Source: Burkholderiales bacterium LSUCC0115 (GTDB lineage Bacteria > Pseudomonadota > Gammaproteobacteria > Burkholderiales > Burkholderiaceae_A). Taken from it: DNA of 64,000 nucleotides. Within the stretch, counting starts at the first letter, position 1; every line of letters starts with the position of its first letter. A program made the translations under genes and the position numbers. Positions 611-55,395 of the stretch are shown piece after piece. Under the pieces are notes generated by a model. That model had not been told where the DNA came from. It did not search any database and saw nothing but the letters and a program-made list of their open reading frames with translations. Location: positions 323,878-387,877 of the forward strand of contig WJBW01000002.1 in assembly GCA_009646425.1 (NCBI GenBank), given 5' to 3'.

Positions 611-1459
611 TTACTGCTGGGGGCCGGTGATTCGGGCCCAGGCCGAGTGGTTGTGAATCGACTCGAAGTTCTCGGCCTCGACCACGTACTTGGCTACCCC
701 TGGCAAGCCAGCCACCGTCAGGGCCACATCCCGAACCAAGTCTTCAACGAACTTGGCATTCTCATAAGCGCGCTCGGTCACGTATTTCTCGTCGGGTCGC
801 TTGAGCAGACCCCAGAGCTCACAAGAGGCCTGGGATTCAACCGCCTTGATCAACTCCACCAGACTCGGGCCATTGTGTTGGCCGGGATCGGCTAGGGTCA
901 CACTGACCTTGACCTCGCTGCGCTGATTGTGGGCACCGTAATCAGAGATTTCTTTTGAACAGGGACAGAGGCTTTTGACGGGCACCGCCACCTGCATCAC
1001 CACCTGGGCGCGACCGTCAACGCTGTGGGCCTGAAAGCCCACTCGATAATCCATGAGGCTCTTCACGCCACTCACGGGTGCAGCCTTCTCAATGAAAAAA
1101 GGTGCGCTGAGTTCAATGCTGCCCTCGGTCGCCTCCAGCAGACTCACCATCTCCTGGACCAGCGTGGCCATCGAGGCAGGCGTCATCTGACGACCTTCCT
1201 TATTCATGGTCTCGAGCAGGGCCACAAAACGGCTCATGTGGGTGCCCTTGCGGTCTGCAGCCAGACCAACCGACAGTGAAAACTCTGCGATCGAAGGCAG
1301 ACGAGCGTCGCCCTCTAGGCCGAAGACCACTGGGTAGCGAAGACCCCGGACACCGACGCGATCGATGGGCAGGTTGCGAGCGTCGACGGAACCCTGCACA
1401 TCAGGCATGGCGGCGGAGGCGTGGCGCAGCACGCTGGAAGAATCGTTTGGCTTGTTCAT
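611..1459 (-). CDS. folE2: GTP cyclohydrolase FolE2 (type IB)
   Basis: The protein converts GTP to 7,8-dihydroneopterin triphosphate, the first step of tetrahydrofolate synthesis. Its 282 residues and the motif [17 protein letters not shown] near residues 165-181, which holds the metal-site cysteine, identify the metal-flexible FolE2 family rather than zinc-dependent Fol[13 protein letters not shown] near 72-83 is also characteristic. The ATG overlaps the dxs stop as ATGA, so translation is probably coupled. In some bacteria FolE2 is a zinc-starvation back-up; its position at the end of a housekeeping isoprenoid operon argues for constitutive use here. Confidence 0.95.
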
Positions 1460-3429
1460 GAGGCCAGTGTAAGGGATACGGGGCCTGGTTTACCCGCAGA
1501 GTCCTCTGACTGCCCTGTGGCTGATGGGGTCTTTGATTGAACCTGGGCAGCATGCCGGCGCACCGATGCCTCAATGCCAGCGGCATCCAAGCCCTCAAGC
1601 GACAGGAGCTTGGCATGATCGCCTTGGTCGATAAAACGATCGGGCAGGCCCAGGTGCATGATGGGGATCATAGGGATTCGGTCTTCCATGGCGACCAAAG
1701 CCTCCGCACAGCCAGAGCCCGCTCCGCCCGCGATCACGTTTTCTTCGATGGTGACCAGCAGATCATGGTGGTTGGCGGCCCAGGCCAGGGTGTCCAAGTC
1801 CAGGGGTTTGATAAACCGCATGTTAACGACCGTGGCATTGAGAGCCTCTGCAGCACCCAGAGCAGGCGCCACCATACTGCCAAAGGCCAGCAAGGCCACG
1901 CGCAGCCGGTGGGGTCCCTCACCACCTTGACGCAGTAACTCGGCCTTGCCGACGGGCAGAGGCTCCAGCGACTGGCCCGCCTCGACACCCATGCCAGCGC
2001 CCCGGGGGTAACGCACCGCCGAAGGGCCATCAACAACCAGGCCCGTGCTCAGCATGGCACGACACTCTGGCTCATCCTTGGGAGCCATGATGACCATATT
2101 GGGAATGCAACGCAGATAAGACAAATCGTAGGCACCCGCATGGGTGGCACCGTCAGCCCCAACGAGCCCCGCTCGATCGATGGCAAACAAGACGGGCAGG
2201 TTCTGCAGAGCCACGTCGTGAATCAACTGGTCATAGCCACGCTGCAAGAACGTGGAGTAAATGGCCACGACAGGGCGCAGGCCCTCGCAGGCCATGCCAG
2301 CGGCCACGGTGACAGCGTGCTGCTCGGCGATGGCCACGTCGTGATACCGATCCGGAAAGCGCTCCGAGAACTCGACCATGCCAGAGCCCTCGCGCATGGC
2401 TGGGGTCACCGCGACCACACGCTCGTCGGCGGCCGCCGCGTCACAGAGCCAGTCACCGAAGATCTTGGAGTAGGTTGGCTTGGGCACCTTGGCAGGTGAG
2501 ACCAGACCAACCGCCGGGTCAAACTTGCCGGGGCCGTGATAGGCGATGGGATCCTCTTCGGCCTTGTCGTAGCCCTGACCTTTTTTGGTGACCACGTGCA
2601 AGAACTGTGGGCCCTTGAGCTCACGTAAATTCTGCAGAGCGGGGACCAGGGCGTCGAGGTCATGGCCGTCGATGGGGCCAAAGTAGTGAAAGCCGAACTC
2701 TTCAAAGAGCGTGCCAGGACCCACCAAGCCCTTGGCGCCACCCTCTAGACGACGGGCGATCTCCAGGACCGGCGGCACCACACCCAAAACCTGCTTGCCG
2801 AGCTCGCGAGCAGCCGAATAAAACCGACCCGTCATCAACCGGGCCAGATAGTTGCTCATGGCCCCGACCGGCGGCGAGATGCTCATCTCGTTGTCATTCA
2901 GAATCACCAGCAGATCAATGTCTTTGTGAATGCCAGCATTGTTCAGGGCCTCATAGGCCATGCCGGCACTAATCGCCCCGTCACCAATCACGGCCAGGTG
3001 CCGGCGTCGGTGCTGACCTTGATGCTCACCCTTTTGCCGGGTGGCCAGCGCCATGCCCAAGGCGGCTGAGATCGAGGTCGAGGAGTGGGCGGTACCGAAA
3101 TGGTCGTATTCACTCTCGGATCGCTTGGGGAAGCCGGACAGCCCCTCGAACTGACGAAGGGTGTGCATCTGATCGCGGCGTCCGGTCAGAATCTTGTGCG
3201 GGTAGCTCTGATGACCCACGTCCCAGACCAGTCGATCGAACGGCGTCTGAAAGACATGATGGATCGCAATAGACAGCTCGACGGTGCCCAGGTTGGAGGA
3301 GAGGTGCCCCCCGGTACTGGCCACTGACTGCAACAGGTAAGCGCGCAACTCATCGGCGAGCTCTTTGAGTTGCCGACGGCTGAGACAGCGCAGATCAGCG
3401 GGGGATTGAATGTCTTGAAGTAAGGCCAT
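1456..3429 (-). CDS. dxs: 1-deoxy-D-xylulose-5-phosphate synthase
   Basis: DXS condenses pyruvate and glyceraldehyde-3-phosphate in a thiamine-diphosphate reaction, the first step of the MEP isoprenoid pathway. At 657 residues it is slightly longer than usual because of a low-complexity tail after about residue 620. The thiamine site is clear: [18 protein letters not shown] begins near residue 149, with N180 (NDNEMSIS) completing the metal site. The pyrimidine/transketolase half contains [19 protein letters not shown]. It follows ispA by 14 bases and overlaps folE2 by four. The MEP gene ispG lies elsewhere in the window at 43445-44707. Confidence 0.97.
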
Positions 3430-3443
3430 GGCTTGAAGATGAA

Positions 3444-4394
3444 CTAGTATGCGCGGTGCGTCAATGCCTGGGCGAGCCCGCGCAGGGCGTCCGCCGAGGC
3501 TCCGTAGCCTGAGAGCTCGGCCAGGGATTGTTGGAGGAGTTGGGCCGCGTGATCACTGGCACGGTCATGCCCCATGAGGCTCACAAAGGTGGGCTTGCCC
3601 TGGGCCTGGTCTTTGCCCGCCGTCTTGCCCAGGGTCTGGGTGTCTGCGCTGGCATCCAGTAGGTCATCGACCACCTGAAAGGCCAGGCCAAGGTTTTGGG
3701 CGTATGCCACCAGGTGCCTCAGGCCATCGGTCGACTGACTGGCCGCAGGGCCCATGAGGCCCCCCATCTCAACCGAAGCCACAATTAGAGCGCCCGTCTT
3801 GAGTCGATGCATGGCCTCGAGTTCTTGCTGCCCAGGGGTCTGCCCCACCGCCGCAATGTCAATGGCCTGTCCACCGGCCATGCCCAGCGCACCGGTGGCC
3901 TGGGCCAAGGACCGAATCAGACGAAGCTGGCGATCTGCAGGGCCAGGGCTCACAGACAGACACTCAAAGGCCAACGTCTGCAGCGCGTCGCCTACCAGCA
4001 GCGCAGTCGGCTCGTCATAGGCCACATGCACGGTCGGTTGCCCGCGCCGCAGGTCATCGTCATCCATACAGGGCATGTCATCGTGGACCAAGGAAAAGGC
4101 ATGAACAAACTCCACCGCACAGGCGGCGTCTAGGACGGCCTCCTGGGTCGGTTCTGCCCCGCTGGCTTGCGCTGCCGCCATGAGCAGCAGGCCCCGGGCC
4201 CGCTTGCCCCCATTCAAAACACCATGACGCATGGCCTTGATCAAACGCGACAGCGCGGCCTGCGCGCCAGGCGCTGCCCTCCCCTGGCTCGTCATCTGGT
4301 CCGTCATGCGCGACTGCGCCTGGTCCAACTGAAACGACAGTCGAGCCTCAATGGCCAACTTCCAGTTGGCAAAGGCGCCTAGACCGGCGGTCAC
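3444..4394 (-). CDS. ispA: farnesyl diphosphate synthase (polyprenyl synthetase)
   Basis: This short-chain prenyltransferase elongates dimethylallyl and geranyl diphosphates with isopentenyl diphosphate. The first aspartate-rich motif [15 protein letters not shown] spans about residues 104-118. The second, [13 protein letters not shown], lies near 239-251, and the family's [10 protein letters not shown] is near 62-71. At 316 residues it is slightly longer than typical IspA because of an N-terminal extension. It overlaps xseB by four bases and precedes dxs, the common xseB-ispA-dxs order. Farnesyl rather than geranylgeranyl product is assumed from that context. Confidence 0.95.
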
Positions 4395-4696
4395 GACTGG
4401 CTGTCCTCCAAGGCCGACCGACTCACCTGACTGGTCTGCCCCTGGGCGTCTATGACGGCTAGGGTCTCTTCCACATGGGTCAGCAGTGCCTGGGCATGCC
4501 TGAGCAAAGCCACGCCCCGCTCATAACTGCCCAGGGACTCGGCCAGGCCCTGGTCACCGGAGGACAGGCGGGCTGTTTCCTCGTCCAGGGCCGACATGGC
4601 CTGTTCGAAGGACATGGCCTGAATCTCGGCCTGCTCAGCAGCCGACAGGCCCTCGCTCGCCTCCTTGGTTTGGCTTGTTTTAGTCCGCATAAACAC
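4391..4696 (-). CDS. xseB: exodeoxyribonuclease VII small subunit
   Basis: This 101-residue protein is longer than E. coli XseB (80) because of a Lys/Thr-rich N-terminus. The core holds the family pattern SFEQAMSALDEETARLSSGDQGLAESLGSYERGVALL, given here as two recognisable parts: the LE-type helix around residues 29-48 and the YERG helix around 63-70. XseB binds the large catalytic subunit XseA, which is not in the window; together they degrade single-stranded DNA. It is the first gene of the minus-strand xseB-ispA-dxs-folE2 run and shares an 83-base divergent region with the Rieske oxygenase. Confidence 0.9.
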   Translation of the reverse strand: MFMRTKTSQTKEASEGLSAAEQAEIQAMSFEQAMSALDEETARLSSGDQGLAESLGSYERGVALLRHAQALLTHVEETLAVIDAQGQTSQVSRSALEDSQS

Positions 4697-4779: not shown

Positions 4780-5895
4780 ATGTCGGATGTCGGAACCTTT
4801 TCTCGGCTTGCACCGAGCCAGGCTCAACTGCCGGTGCAGGCATATTTCAACGATGCGCTTCTTGCCCAAGAGCGCACTCAATGCTTCCAGGCAGGCCCTG
4901 GCTACGTCGGTCACCGACTCATGGTGCCGGAGCCTGGGCGCTACAGCACGCTGGCCCACGAGGACCACGGGCGCGTGCTCGTCCATGGCCCACATGGCAT
5001 CGAGCTGCTGTCCAACATCTGCCGTCACCGACAGGCCGTCATGCTCGAAGGTCAGGGTCAGACCGAATCCATCGTCTGTCCGCTGCACCGCTGGACCTAT
5101 GACCTGTCAGGCCAGCTGATCGGTGCACCCTACTTTGACCAAGACCCCTGTCGTCACCTCAAGCGCAAGCCGCTGACCGAGTGGAATGGGCTGCTTTTTG
5201 AGGGTCAGGCTGATCTGCTCAAAGAACTCTCGAGCGTCCCCTTCTTTGACAAGCTCGACTTCGAGGGCTTTGTTCACGCCAAGACCCAGGTCCATCACTG
5301 CGATTACAACTGGAAGAGTTTCATCGAGGTCTACATGGACGACTACCATGTGGTGCCCTTCCACCCCGGCCTGGGTAGTTTTGTTGACTGCGATGCGCTT
5401 CGCTGGCACTTCGGTGAGAACTTCAACATCCAGGCCGTCGGCATCACGCCGCTGACCAAGGGAGCCACCCCGGTCTATCAGCGTTGGCAGCAAGAGGTCC
5501 TGCGCATGCACGATGGCCAGCTGCCGGAATACGGCGCCATCTGGATGACCATCTACCCCAACATCATGGTGGAGTGGTACCCCAAGGTCTTGGTGGTCAG
5601 CCACCTGCACCCGCTGTCCCCCCAGAAGACGCTAAACGTGGTGGAGTTCTACTACCCAGAAGAGATCGCCCTCTTTGAGCCCACGTATATGCAGGCCCAG
5701 CAGGACGCCTACAACGAGACGGTGATCGAAGACGACGAGATTGCCATCCGCATGGACCGTGGCCGCGCAGCCCTGGCCAAGGCTGGTCGCAACGAGACCG
5801 GCCCCTACCACTCCCCCATGGAAGACGGCATGCTTCACTTCCATGAATACCTGCGTCGCCAGTTGGGCGACCAAGCCTTTGCCAACCTGACATGA
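4780..5895 (+). CDS. Rieske-type ring-hydroxylating oxygenase, alpha subunit family
   Basis: The 371-residue protein has the two metal sites of Rieske non-haem iron oxygenases. The [2Fe-2S] ligands are C81-R-H83 and C100-P-L-H103. A mononuclear iron site is suggested by DDYHVVPFHPG (H190, H195) with acidic residues further on (EDDE). I start at the ATG behind GGGGGGA; an in-frame ATG 75 bases earlier would add an untypical leader. No beta subunit, reductase or ferredoxin adjoins it. The stop overlaps the sseA-like start as ATGA, implying co-translation. The substrate is unknown. FdxA-Fpr at 13 kb is one possible electron donor, by inference only. Confidence 0.85.
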   Translation: MSDVGTFSRLAPSQAQLPVQAYFNDALLAQERTQCFQAGPGYVGHRLMVPEPGRYSTLAHEDHGRVLVHGPHGIELLSNICRHRQAVMLEGQGQTESIVCPLHRWTYDLSGQLIGAPYFDQDPCRHLKRKPLTEWNGLLFEGQADLLKELSSVPFFDKLDFEGFVHAKTQVHHCDYNWKSFIEVYMDDYHVVPFHPGLGSFVDCDALRWHFGENFNIQAVGITPLTKGATPVYQRWQQEVLRMHDGQLPEYGAIWMTIYPNIMVEWYPKVLVVSHLHPLSPQKTLNVVEFYYPEEIALFEPTYMQAQQDAYNETVIEDDEIAIRMDRGRAALAKAGRNETGPYHSPMEDGMLHFHEYLRRQLGDQAFANLT

Positions 5896-6752
5896 ACCCA
5901 CTCATTCGCCCAGCCGAACTCATTGCCGAGCCCAGCGAGGTTCTGGTGATTGACGTTCGCCACGACCTCACCGACCCCACCTATGGCTTTCGGGCTTACG
6001 CCGAAGGCCACCTGCCCAATGCCGCTTTCCTCTCAGTGGACGATGACCTGAGCGGCGAGGCAGGCCCCAACAACGGCGGGCGTCATCCCCTGCCGGATCC
6101 GCAAACCTTTGCCAAGCGACTCGAAGGCCTCGGCGTCACCGAGGACACCCTCATCGTGGGCTATGACAGCAGCGGTGGCAATTTCGCAGCCCGACTCTGG
6201 TGGCTCGTGCGATCCATTGGCCACCTCAAAGTCGCAGTGCTCGACGGTGGCATTCAGGCCTGGCTTCGTGCCGGTGGCGGCCTAAAAACGACCGACTTCA
6301 AGCCCCGACGCAAGGGCCAGCTCACGGTTCGGCCCACAGGCTGCCCCCGATGGGATCTGCCCATGGTCCAGCAATGGGTTGCCTCTGGCTCACACCCCGA
6401 TATTGCCTGCCTGCTCGATGCCCGGGCAGTGGAGCGATTTGCTGGTGAGTCAGAGCCGTTTGATCCCGTCGCGGGACACATCCCAGGCGCCCTCAACCGG
6501 CCCCAGTCCCTCAACCTAGATGCCGACGGCTGTTTCAAACCGGCCTCTGTGCTGCGAGAAGAATTCGATGCCCTGTTGCAGGGTCGTGACCCCATGTCGG
6601 TGGTCCACAGCTGCGGCTCCGGGATCAACGCCTGTCATAACCTGCTGGCCATGGAGGCTGCCGGCCTGATTGGCAGTGCGCTGTACCCAGGCTCTTGGAG
6701 TGAATGGTGCTCTGACGCCAGCCGCCCAGTGGCGACAGGGCGGCCCAGCTAA
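5892..6752 (+). CDS. sseA: 3-mercaptopyruvate/thiosulfate sulfurtransferase, two rhodanese domains
   Basis: Two rhodanese domains are present, an inactive N-terminal one (about 5-130) and a catalytic C-terminal one (about 155-280). The active-site loop is HSCGSGINACHN with nucleophile C241; CGSG[VI] is the mercaptopyruvate-type loop, whereas thiosulfate rhodaneses usually carry a CRxGx[RT] loop. The protein is 286 residues, normal for SseA. It transfers sulfur from 3-mercaptopyruvate to an acceptor, probably in the cytoplasm since there is no signal peptide. It is translationally coupled to the upstream Rieske oxygenase and ends two bases before the convergent maiA stop. Confidence 0.88.
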   Translation: MNPLIRPAELIAEPSEVLVIDVRHDLTDPTYGFRAYAEGHLPNAAFLSVDDDLSGEAGPNNGGRHPLPDPQTFAKRLEGLGVTEDTLIVGYDSSGGNFAARLWWLVRSIGHLKVAVLDGGIQAWLRAGGGLKTTDFKPRRKGQLTVRPTGCPRWDLPMVQQWVASGSHPDIACLLDARAVERFAGESEPFDPVAGHIPGALNRPQSLNLDADGCFKPASVLREEFDALLQGRDPMSVVHSCGSGINACHNLLAMEAAGLIGSALYPGSWSEWCSDASRPVATGRPS

Positions 6753-12832: not shown

Positions 12833-12982
12833 GTTTGTCGCTCATCAAAAAAGGGCGTTTATGGCCCCAAAAACCAAATGGCTGGCCGGGCATCGGGTGA
12901 TGGCCAGGGTCAAACAGCGTTACCATTTCGTTTTAAGTGTAACCAGGGCCCAGAGCCTTGGGTATTCGGATATCACCCAATC

Positions 12983-13306
12983 ATGACCCACGTCGTTACC
13001 GAATCCTGTATCAAGTGCCGCTACACCGACTGTGTAGACGTCTGTCCCGTGGACTGCTTCCGCAAGGGCCCCAACTTTCTGGTCATTGACCCAGATGAGT
13101 GCATTGACTGCGCCGTCTGCATCCCCGAGTGCCCAGTCAACGCCATATACGCCGAAGAAGACGTACCAGACGATCAGCGGGAGTTTATTGCCCTGAACGT
13201 CGAACTGGCCAAGACCTGGCCCAGTATCACCCGCCTCGAGCCACATCCGGCCGATGCCGATGACTGGGCGTCCGTCAAAGAGAAAAAACACCTGCTCGAA
13301 CGCTAA
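12983..13306 (+). CDS. fdxA: 7Fe ferredoxin FdxA
   Basis: The 107-residue protein begins MTHVVTESCIKCRYTDCVDV and carries a 3Fe-4S site (C9, C17 and a distal cysteine) and a 4Fe-4S site in CIDCAVCIPECPVNAIY. It has the long C-terminal extension of Azotobacter-type 7Fe ferredoxins. The ATG shown is the family start, though no clear Shine-Dalgarno precedes it. The TAA stop is directly followed by the GTG of a ferredoxin-NADP reductase gene, so the two are very likely translated together as a donor/acceptor pair. Confidence 0.95.
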   Translation: MTHVVTESCIKCRYTDCVDVCPVDCFRKGPNFLVIDPDECIDCAVCIPECPVNAIYAEEDVPDDQREFIALNVELAKTWPSITRLEPHPADADDWASVKEKKHLLER

Positions 13307-14089
13307 GTGAGCACCGCGAACGACAAGGTTGCGAGCGTCCGCATCACGTCGATCTCGAGCTGGACCGACCACCTCTTTTCTTTCAAGACCGAGCGGCCGG
13401 CGGGCTTTAAGTTCACAGCTGGGCAATTCGCCCGACTCGGGCTGCCCATCCAACCAGGGTCGTCTGAACTGGTCTGGCGCGCCTACTCCATCGCCTCCGG
13501 CCCTTACGACGAAGAGCTGGAGTACTACTCGATTGTGGTGCCCAATGGGGCCTTAACCAGCCAGCTGAGCAGCCTGAAGGTCGGCGATGAGCTGCTCATG
13601 GAACGGCAGAACCACGGCTTTTTAACCATCGACCGGTTTGCCCTGACCGGGGACCTGTGGATGCTGGCCTCCGGTACCGGCTTGGCCCCGTTCTTGTCCA
13701 TCTTGCAGGACCCCCAGGCCTGGGAGGCCTTTGATCGCCTGATTCTGGTGCACAGCGTTCGGGCCCAGAACGAGTTGGCCTACAAAGACTGGATCGAGGC
13801 GCTGCCCAGTCACCCTATTTTTGGCGACTGGGCGACCGAGAAGCTGATATACCAGCCCATCGTGACCCGAGAGGCCACCGCCTACCCGTCCGCCCGAATT
13901 CCCAGCCTCATTGATTCGGGCAACTTGGCCCGCCTGATCGGCAGGCCCCTCACCCCAGAGGCCGCCAAATGCATGCTCTGTGGAAACCCAGAGATGGTCA
14001 GCGAAACCAGAAATGCTCTTAAAAAACATGGGTTTGTGTCCGCCAGAAGTTCTCGTCCTGGACAAATCGCGACGGAAAATTACTGGTAA
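13307..14089 (+). CDS. fpr: ferredoxin-NADP+ reductase
   Basis: A 260-residue Fpr-type flavoenzyme. The FAD motif RAYSIASG spans 58-65, the NADP(H) phosphate loop ASGTGLAPFLS spans 121-131, and CMLCGNPEMV follows near the C-terminus. It ends in an aromatic residue (ENYW), as bacterial Fprs commonly do. It moves electrons between NADPH and ferredoxin or flavodoxin, in response to oxidative stress in several bacteria. The start is GTG, contiguous with the fdxA stop, giving zero spacing; coupling with FdxA is therefore the likely expression mode. Confidence 0.93.
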   Translation: MSTANDKVASVRITSISSWTDHLFSFKTERPAGFKFTAGQFARLGLPIQPGSSELVWRAYSIASGPYDEELEYYSIVVPNGALTSQLSSLKVGDELLMERQNHGFLTIDRFALTGDLWMLASGTGLAPFLSILQDPQAWEAFDRLILVHSVRAQNELAYKDWIEALPSHPIFGDWATEKLIYQPIVTREATAYPSARIPSLIDSGNLARLIGRPLTPEAAKCMLCGNPEMVSETRNALKKHGFVSARSSRPGQIATENYW

Positions 14090-32279: not shown

Positions 32280-32366
32280 GCCCAGATGGCGGAATTGGTA
32301 GACGCACTAGGTTCAGGTCCTAGCGGTGGCAACACTGTGGAGGTTCGAGTCCTCTTCTGGGCACCA
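32280..32366 (+). tRNA. tRNA-Leu, anticodon CAG
   Basis: An 87-base class II tRNA with encoded CCA. The acceptor arms are GCCCAGA/TCTGGGC, the anticodon stem is CTAGG/CCTAG around TTCAGGT, the variable arm is long and the T-loop is GGTTCGAGTCC. The CAG anticodon reads CUG, the dominant leucine codon in this G+C-rich sequence. It is a single-gene unit whose 3' end lies two bases from the convergent purA stop; no separate terminator is visible. Confidence 0.96.
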
Positions 32367-55319: not shown

Positions 55320-55395
55320 GCCTCCGTAGCTCAGTGGATAGAGCATCCCCCTCCTAAGGGGAGGGTCGCACGTTCGATTCGTGCCGGAGGCGCCA
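55320..55395 (+). tRNA. tRNA-Arg, anticodon CCT
   Basis: A 76-base tRNA with encoded CCA. The acceptor arms are GCCTCCG/CGGAGGC, the anticodon loop is CTCCTAA and the T-arm is GCACGTTCGATTCGTGC. It reads AGG, a rare codon here. trhO starts 18 bases downstream and may be on the same transcript. Confidence 0.97.

Follow-up and report, generated by a model that had tools for sequence, protein, structure and literature searches.

In Bordetella bronchiseptica and Ralstonia solanacearum, the enzymes that hydroxylate putrescine at carbon 2 are reportedly Rieske proteins. Hydroxyputrescine is placed within the class Betaproteobacteria by the title of Hamana et al., 2006 (as given in the references of PMC11999265), and a passage of PMC10385936, citing Li et al., 2016, suggests that the betaproteobacterial compound may derive from putrescine hydroxylases like those of these two species. 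The same source describes hydroxyputrescine as part of alcaligin (PMC10385936). In the passages available, the polyamines of Ralstonia pickettii are given as putrescine and 2-hydroxyputrescine (PMC7857480) and 2-hydroxyputrescine is named as a minor polyamine beside putrescine in Massilia antarctica (PMC9028926).

Here we describe an overlapping gene pair in Burkholderiales bacterium LSUCC0115, the first member of which we predict, as a very likely assignment, to be a core betaproteobacterial putrescine 2-hydroxylase, with the second, a sulfurtransferase, as an independent enzyme that belongs to a long-standing gene neighbourhood. The window, meaning the whole stretch of DNA analysed, comprises 64,000 nt (GCA_009646425.1, WJBW01000002.1, positions 323,878-387,877, forward strand). 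Its relevant features are:

1456..3429, minus strand: dxs, divergent neighbour, named by eye, matching the region annotated as dxs in locus L118 at 72%
3444..4394, minus strand: ispA (farnesyl diphosphate synthase), divergent neighbour; NCBIfam FPPsyn 292.7 bits, cut-off 275
4391..4696, minus strand: xseB, divergent neighbour, which together with ispA is the conserved anchor of the neighbourhood
4780..5895, plus strand: Rieske oxygenase, probable putrescine 2-hydroxylase, 371 aa; Pfam Rieske and Ring_hydroxyl_A, alcE-type paralogues within the family
5020..5088, plus strand: Rieske cluster ligand motif C81-x-H83 ... C100-x2-H103, the ligands of which do not vary across the 180 core rows
5338..5364, plus strand: mononuclear iron motif D187-D-Y-H190 ... 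H195, from the alignment of core rows
5892..5895, plus strand: ATGA stop/start overlap of the oxygenase and sulfurtransferase ORFs
5892..6752, plus strand: two-domain rhodanese, 3-mercaptopyruvate sulfurtransferase-like, loop C241-G-S-G; Pfam Rhodanese twice, 1urh, alignment

A folE2 ORF, read by eye, lies further upstream after dxs, and a convergent maiA-type gene and a FAA-hydrolase-family gene are found downstream of the pair. A first-pass annotation had described an intact Rieske oxygenase that overlaps a sulfurtransferase by an ATGA, and the ORFs at 4780-5895 and 5892-6752 bear this out. It had also noted the lack of an adjoining reductase or beta subunit; indeed, no reductase, ferredoxin or beta-subunit gene was found among the neighbours scanned on both sides of the pair. 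Such adjoining genes would be expected of an aromatic ring-hydroxylating dioxygenase system, which the locus does not resemble in this respect. Elsewhere in the window, a 4Fe-4S ferredoxin-type gene (12977-13306) is directly followed by a FAD/NAD-binding (flavin) reductase gene (13307-14089), the products of which are possible candidates for electron donors of the oxygenase. Promoter and terminator scans around the pair returned no hits and Rfam has no match at the pair. The only Rfam matches in the window at gathering threshold are two tRNA genes (32280-32363 and 55320-55392). Recent horizontal gain is not favoured, given the even GC along the window and the wide occurrence of the gene in the order.

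The oxygenase retains a complete set of metal ligands, and its closest solved relatives include oxygenases acting on small amines. Both the Rieske and the Ring_hydroxyl_A domain score above the Pfam cut-off. The window protein has all four ligands of the 2Fe-2S cluster, as well as both iron-binding histidines and a bridging acid. A Rieske 2Fe-2S domain joined to a catalytic alpha domain with its ligands in place is the make-up of a Rieske-type putrescine 2-hydroxylase. All 180 core rows share the two iron-binding histidines. The bridging residue is Glu in 164 rows and Asp in 16, the latter including the window protein. Three acidic residues (E265, E289 and E313) are conserved across at least 97% of core and alc-type rows of the alignment but occur in 0 of 4 outgroup rows. 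The AlphaFold model of the oxygenase is weak (mean pLDDT 63.3), notably in the Rieske domain, and the three residues are identified from the alignment. Carnitine monooxygenase CntA (6y9c) is the top match among solved structures by both profile and fold, and stachydrine demethylase (4qup) stands near the top of both lists, with the aromatic-acid oxygenases salicylate 5-hydroxylase and terephthalate dioxygenase also ranking high, close behind, in each. TM scores of the first five PDB matches are low (0.43-0.50 by query length) and are used for ranking only. A single-sequence search of solved structures placed 3n0q, which has no assigned function, first.

The presence of quaternary-amine oxygenases among these relatives could indicate that the family acts by hydroxylation or demethylation on a different small amine, such as a betaine or a further polyamine, and that putrescine is the substrate of the alc-type copies only. 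The predominance of Glu as bridging residue would agree with this, Glu being the corresponding residue of CntA. However, all six NCBIfam models matching the oxygenase do so far below their cut-offs, and identity as the glycine betaine monooxygenase GbcA was rejected at 64.6 of the 670 bits of the equivalog cut-off. Moreover, the alc-type copies nest inside the core family, which makes a single substrate the simpler assumption. We thus regard another amine as an unlikely substrate.

The oxygenase looks like a lineage-wide core gene and not a catabolic accessory. It was detected in 252 of 300 genomes of the window's order, each with one match at E <= 1e-60. A class-wide draw of 275 genomes yielded three matching genomes, all from the window's order and including the window's own; 20 of the non-matching genomes are listed as other members of the class, with kinship listed for none of the 252 more. 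The genome of LSUCC0115 (1.84 Mb, 99.96% complete) contains one oxygenase match, and a search for Ring_hydroxyl_A proteins at E <= 0.001 yielded no further one. Many of the 48 genomes of the order without the oxygenase belong to a few families (e.g. f178, f181, f182 and f207) and some are small. Within the window's own family, the oxygenase copies of L143 and L145 (genus g218) are just 47-49% identical to that of the window, and L143 forms a long branch in the oxygenase tree.

Paralogues of the oxygenase are found in siderophore operons and point to putrescine as the substrate. A protein search of plasmid records returned core-like matches of 46-59% identity followed by a gap to at most 28% (40 best rows of 672 records). 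Two of the most divergent of these core-like matches come from a Caballeronia grimmiae replicon (L115) and a Cupriavidus campinensis replicon (L116) and represent the nearest paralogues, 47-52% identical to the window protein. In both, the Rieske gene ends an operon encoding a Lys/Orn-type N-monooxygenase, an MFS transporter, a GNAT protein, an IucA/IucC synthetase and a FhuF-type reductase, an order that we take to be the alcABCDE layout of alcaligin-type siderophores. A tree of 66 rows places both alc-type proteins among the core members, in a clade of 32 rows supported at 98/97, and separates four other Rieske proteins from the core family at 100/99. The exact position of the alc pair is less certain (85/77), with the bootstrap incompletely settled. 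The window protein is close kin to the Rieske protein of these alcaligin-type operons. Caballeronia sp. M1242 carries an alc-type Rieske gene in two pieces beside a TonB receptor (L117, 10001-10746) as well as a core-like copy (H7) on another replicon.

Since these alc-operon paralogues nest in the family and the published hydroxylases are reportedly Rieske proteins, the window oxygenase most likely forms 2-hydroxyputrescine, an assignment made from sequence. At the level of the order, the spread of the gene is compatible with that of a group marker metabolite. The first-pass annotation knew of no described pathway for such a pair, a view that finds no support here, given the alcaligin-type operon members in the family and their indication of putrescine hydroxylation. 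LSUCC0115 encodes one Orn/Lys/Arg decarboxylase, which reaches no NCBIfam cut-off for its substrate. In a comparison of 80 genomes, the decarboxylase family was present in 28 of 32 oxygenase-bearing genomes, the remaining four giving no match, versus 28 of 48 oxygenase-less ones (Fisher p 0.006, relatedness ignored), so that 20 of the latter are without both. Massilia is a genus common among the oxygenase matches; M. antarctica itself is absent from the 80 best loci with species names. A search of one limited literature collection returned nothing on putrescine 2-hydroxylase, or on 2-hydroxyputrescine together with Rieske.

The second gene of the pair encodes a rhodanese-family sulfurtransferase. 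Pfam Rhodanese exceeds its cut-off over two stretches and the best solved relative is 1urh, of the E. coli SseA type. The two rhodanese domains and a CGSG loop, presumably the SseA-type active site, are features shared with SseA. With the NCBIfam SseA equivalog model the protein reaches 118.6 bits, the cut-off being 250. The earlier label "mercaptopyruvate-type" is therefore apt at the family level and too specific if taken to mean an SseA equivalog.

Oxygenase and sulfurtransferase show a genuine, long-standing linkage that is nevertheless not obligatory, and their tight coupling is a local feature. With sulfurtransferase presence called at E <= 1e-50, 196 of the 300 genomes of the order contain both genes, 56 the oxygenase only, 24 the sulfurtransferase only and 24 neither (odds ratio 3.5, p 1.5e-4, relatedness ignored). 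Positions of both genes are listed for 103 genomes, a non-random sample drawn from the best matches, and in 70 of these the sulfurtransferase follows the oxygenase on the same strand at a distance of no more than 5 kb. The linked genomes cover 18 of 30 families, a lower bound, as L160 carries the pair although its family was scored as lacking the linkage. Among the best 80 of at least 593 loci, a set biased to close relatives, 78 have a same-strand sulfurtransferase, the exceptions being L034, where the contig ends, and L037. Of 98 loci of the order, 73 have xseB or ispA in divergent orientation no more than 3 kb away. The pairing is hence not restricted to one narrow lineage; such a restriction, with no conserved coupling, is what the first-pass annotation had named as fatal to its proposal. 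A chance overlap is ruled out because the neighbourhood recurs across families.

The gene immediately downstream of the oxygenase is often a transporter. In 95 loci with at least 1.4 kb of downstream sequence, the first gene encodes an EamA/DMT transporter in 36, the sulfurtransferase in 25 and neither in 33; in one of these 95 loci, L141, the sulfurtransferase is on the opposite strand. Where 4 kb is available (36 loci), the sulfurtransferase is found within 3 kb in 16, 10 of them behind the transporter, and the rest show the transporter alone (6) or neither (14). In Mitsuaria sp. 7 the order is xseB, Rieske, DMT transporter, sulfurtransferase, universal stress protein and ZIP transporter. 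EamA/DMT genes between Rieske and sulfurtransferase are located at 7209-8204 in L082, 7157-8083 in L054 and 9213-10109 in L118, and no such gene is present in the window. As a guess, the transporter may be a candidate polyamine exporter.

The coupling by overlap is local and not conserved. Of 39 parsed junctions, two belonging to the window itself, only those of the window, L006 and L087 show the exact four-base overlap; starts were chosen automatically, which left six starts unresolved and two rows misread. No oxygenase-sulfurtransferase fusion was detected in 130 same-strand loci, some of them the same gene counted twice, the Rieske frame always ending before the sulfurtransferase, and among 186 loci no Rieske frame exceeds 430 codons from the match start.

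Based on these surveys, two ways of joining the enzymes functionally can be weighed. The first-pass annotation had suggested that the two enzymes share a pathway and a thiol or sulfur-containing substrate, and the same-strand linkage in 18 of 30 families together with the associated presence of the two genes would be in line with this. Against it, 56 of 252 oxygenase genomes are without the sulfurtransferase while 24 of 48 oxygenase-less genomes keep it, the EamA gene so often comes first downstream, no fusion occurs and the alc-type copies of L115 and L116 have no sulfurtransferase match within 10 kb on either side. We consider a common substrate very unlikely. Rieske-type clusters are loaded by cysteine desulfurase-based Isc or Suf systems, and this, along with the same 56 genomes, makes it highly improbable that the sulfurtransferase serves the Rieske cluster in sulfur supply or repair, even though the tight packing in the window's lineage and the order-wide neighbourhood could be read that way. 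The sulfurtransferase thus looks like an old neighbour of the oxygenase rather than a proven partner. In one limited literature collection, a search joining 3-mercaptopyruvate sulfurtransferase with Rieske and oxygenase gave just matches that look unrelated by listing, and records matching the neighbour gene names make no mention of Rieske or sulfurtransferase.

Most simply, the locus can be read as encoding a putrescine 2-hydroxylase whose conserved gene neighbourhood is tightly packed in a small-genome lineage. The Rieske protein would hydroxylate carbon 2 of putrescine to yield 2-hydroxyputrescine, the betaproteobacterial marker polyamine, with O2 as cosubstrate and a general ferredoxin or reductase, encoded at another site, as electron source. 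The AlcE-type Rieske protein of the alcaligin operon would be a derived copy that carries out the same step for a siderophore. The old neighbourhood would comprise xseB-ispA-dxs, divergent to the Rieske gene, the EamA transporter gene and the sulfurtransferase gene. In the window's lineage, the lack of an EamA gene between the two genes and their end-to-end arrangement suggest co-transcription and probably translational coupling, with no shared reaction implied. This account leaves the conserved downstream sulfurtransferase and EamA transporter without explanation. Another reading would be that the Rieske hydroxylase, an EamA exporter of hydroxyputrescine and the rhodanese form one ancient betaproteobacterial module in which the sulfurtransferase provides a link to sulfur metabolism, for example through a thiolated derivative or persulfide guarding of the cluster; we view such a module as decidedly unlikely. 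On the putrescine 2-hydroxylase reading, the enzyme is of an established kind and its gene sits in a long-standing neighbourhood, and the data do not provide evidence for a new joint pathway.

Tying a gene found in most sampled genomes of one large order to the signature polyamine of the group would make the purpose of 2-hydroxyputrescine, an old chemotaxonomic question, testable by deleting one gene. The 48 oxygenase-less genomes represent a natural contrast set for hydroxyputrescine. The observed pairing would reflect an old neighbourhood in which two non-obligate partners were tightly packed in one small-genome lineage.

Compared with described systems, the window protein shares its Rieske oxygenase type with CntA (6y9c) and stachydrine demethylase (4qup), which also act on small amines, but these are only ca. 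20% identical to it and use quaternary-amine substrates. The sulfurtransferase resembles the E. coli SseA-type 3-mercaptopyruvate sulfurtransferase (1urh) in its two rhodanese domains and CGSG loop, yet falls below the NCBIfam equivalog cut-off. AlcE-type proteins belong to the same family branch, with an identical domain layout in L115; in contrast to the window protein they are located in a siderophore operon and are longer as read (397 and 405 residues versus 371). The putrescine 2-hydroxylases of B. bronchiseptica and R. solanacearum are likewise betaproteobacterial and reportedly of Rieske type, and at the level of the order the distribution of the window's family is compatible with that of the metabolite. 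Those enzymes have been assayed, whereas the window protein is known from its sequence and would be linked to them indirectly, through the alc-type copies.
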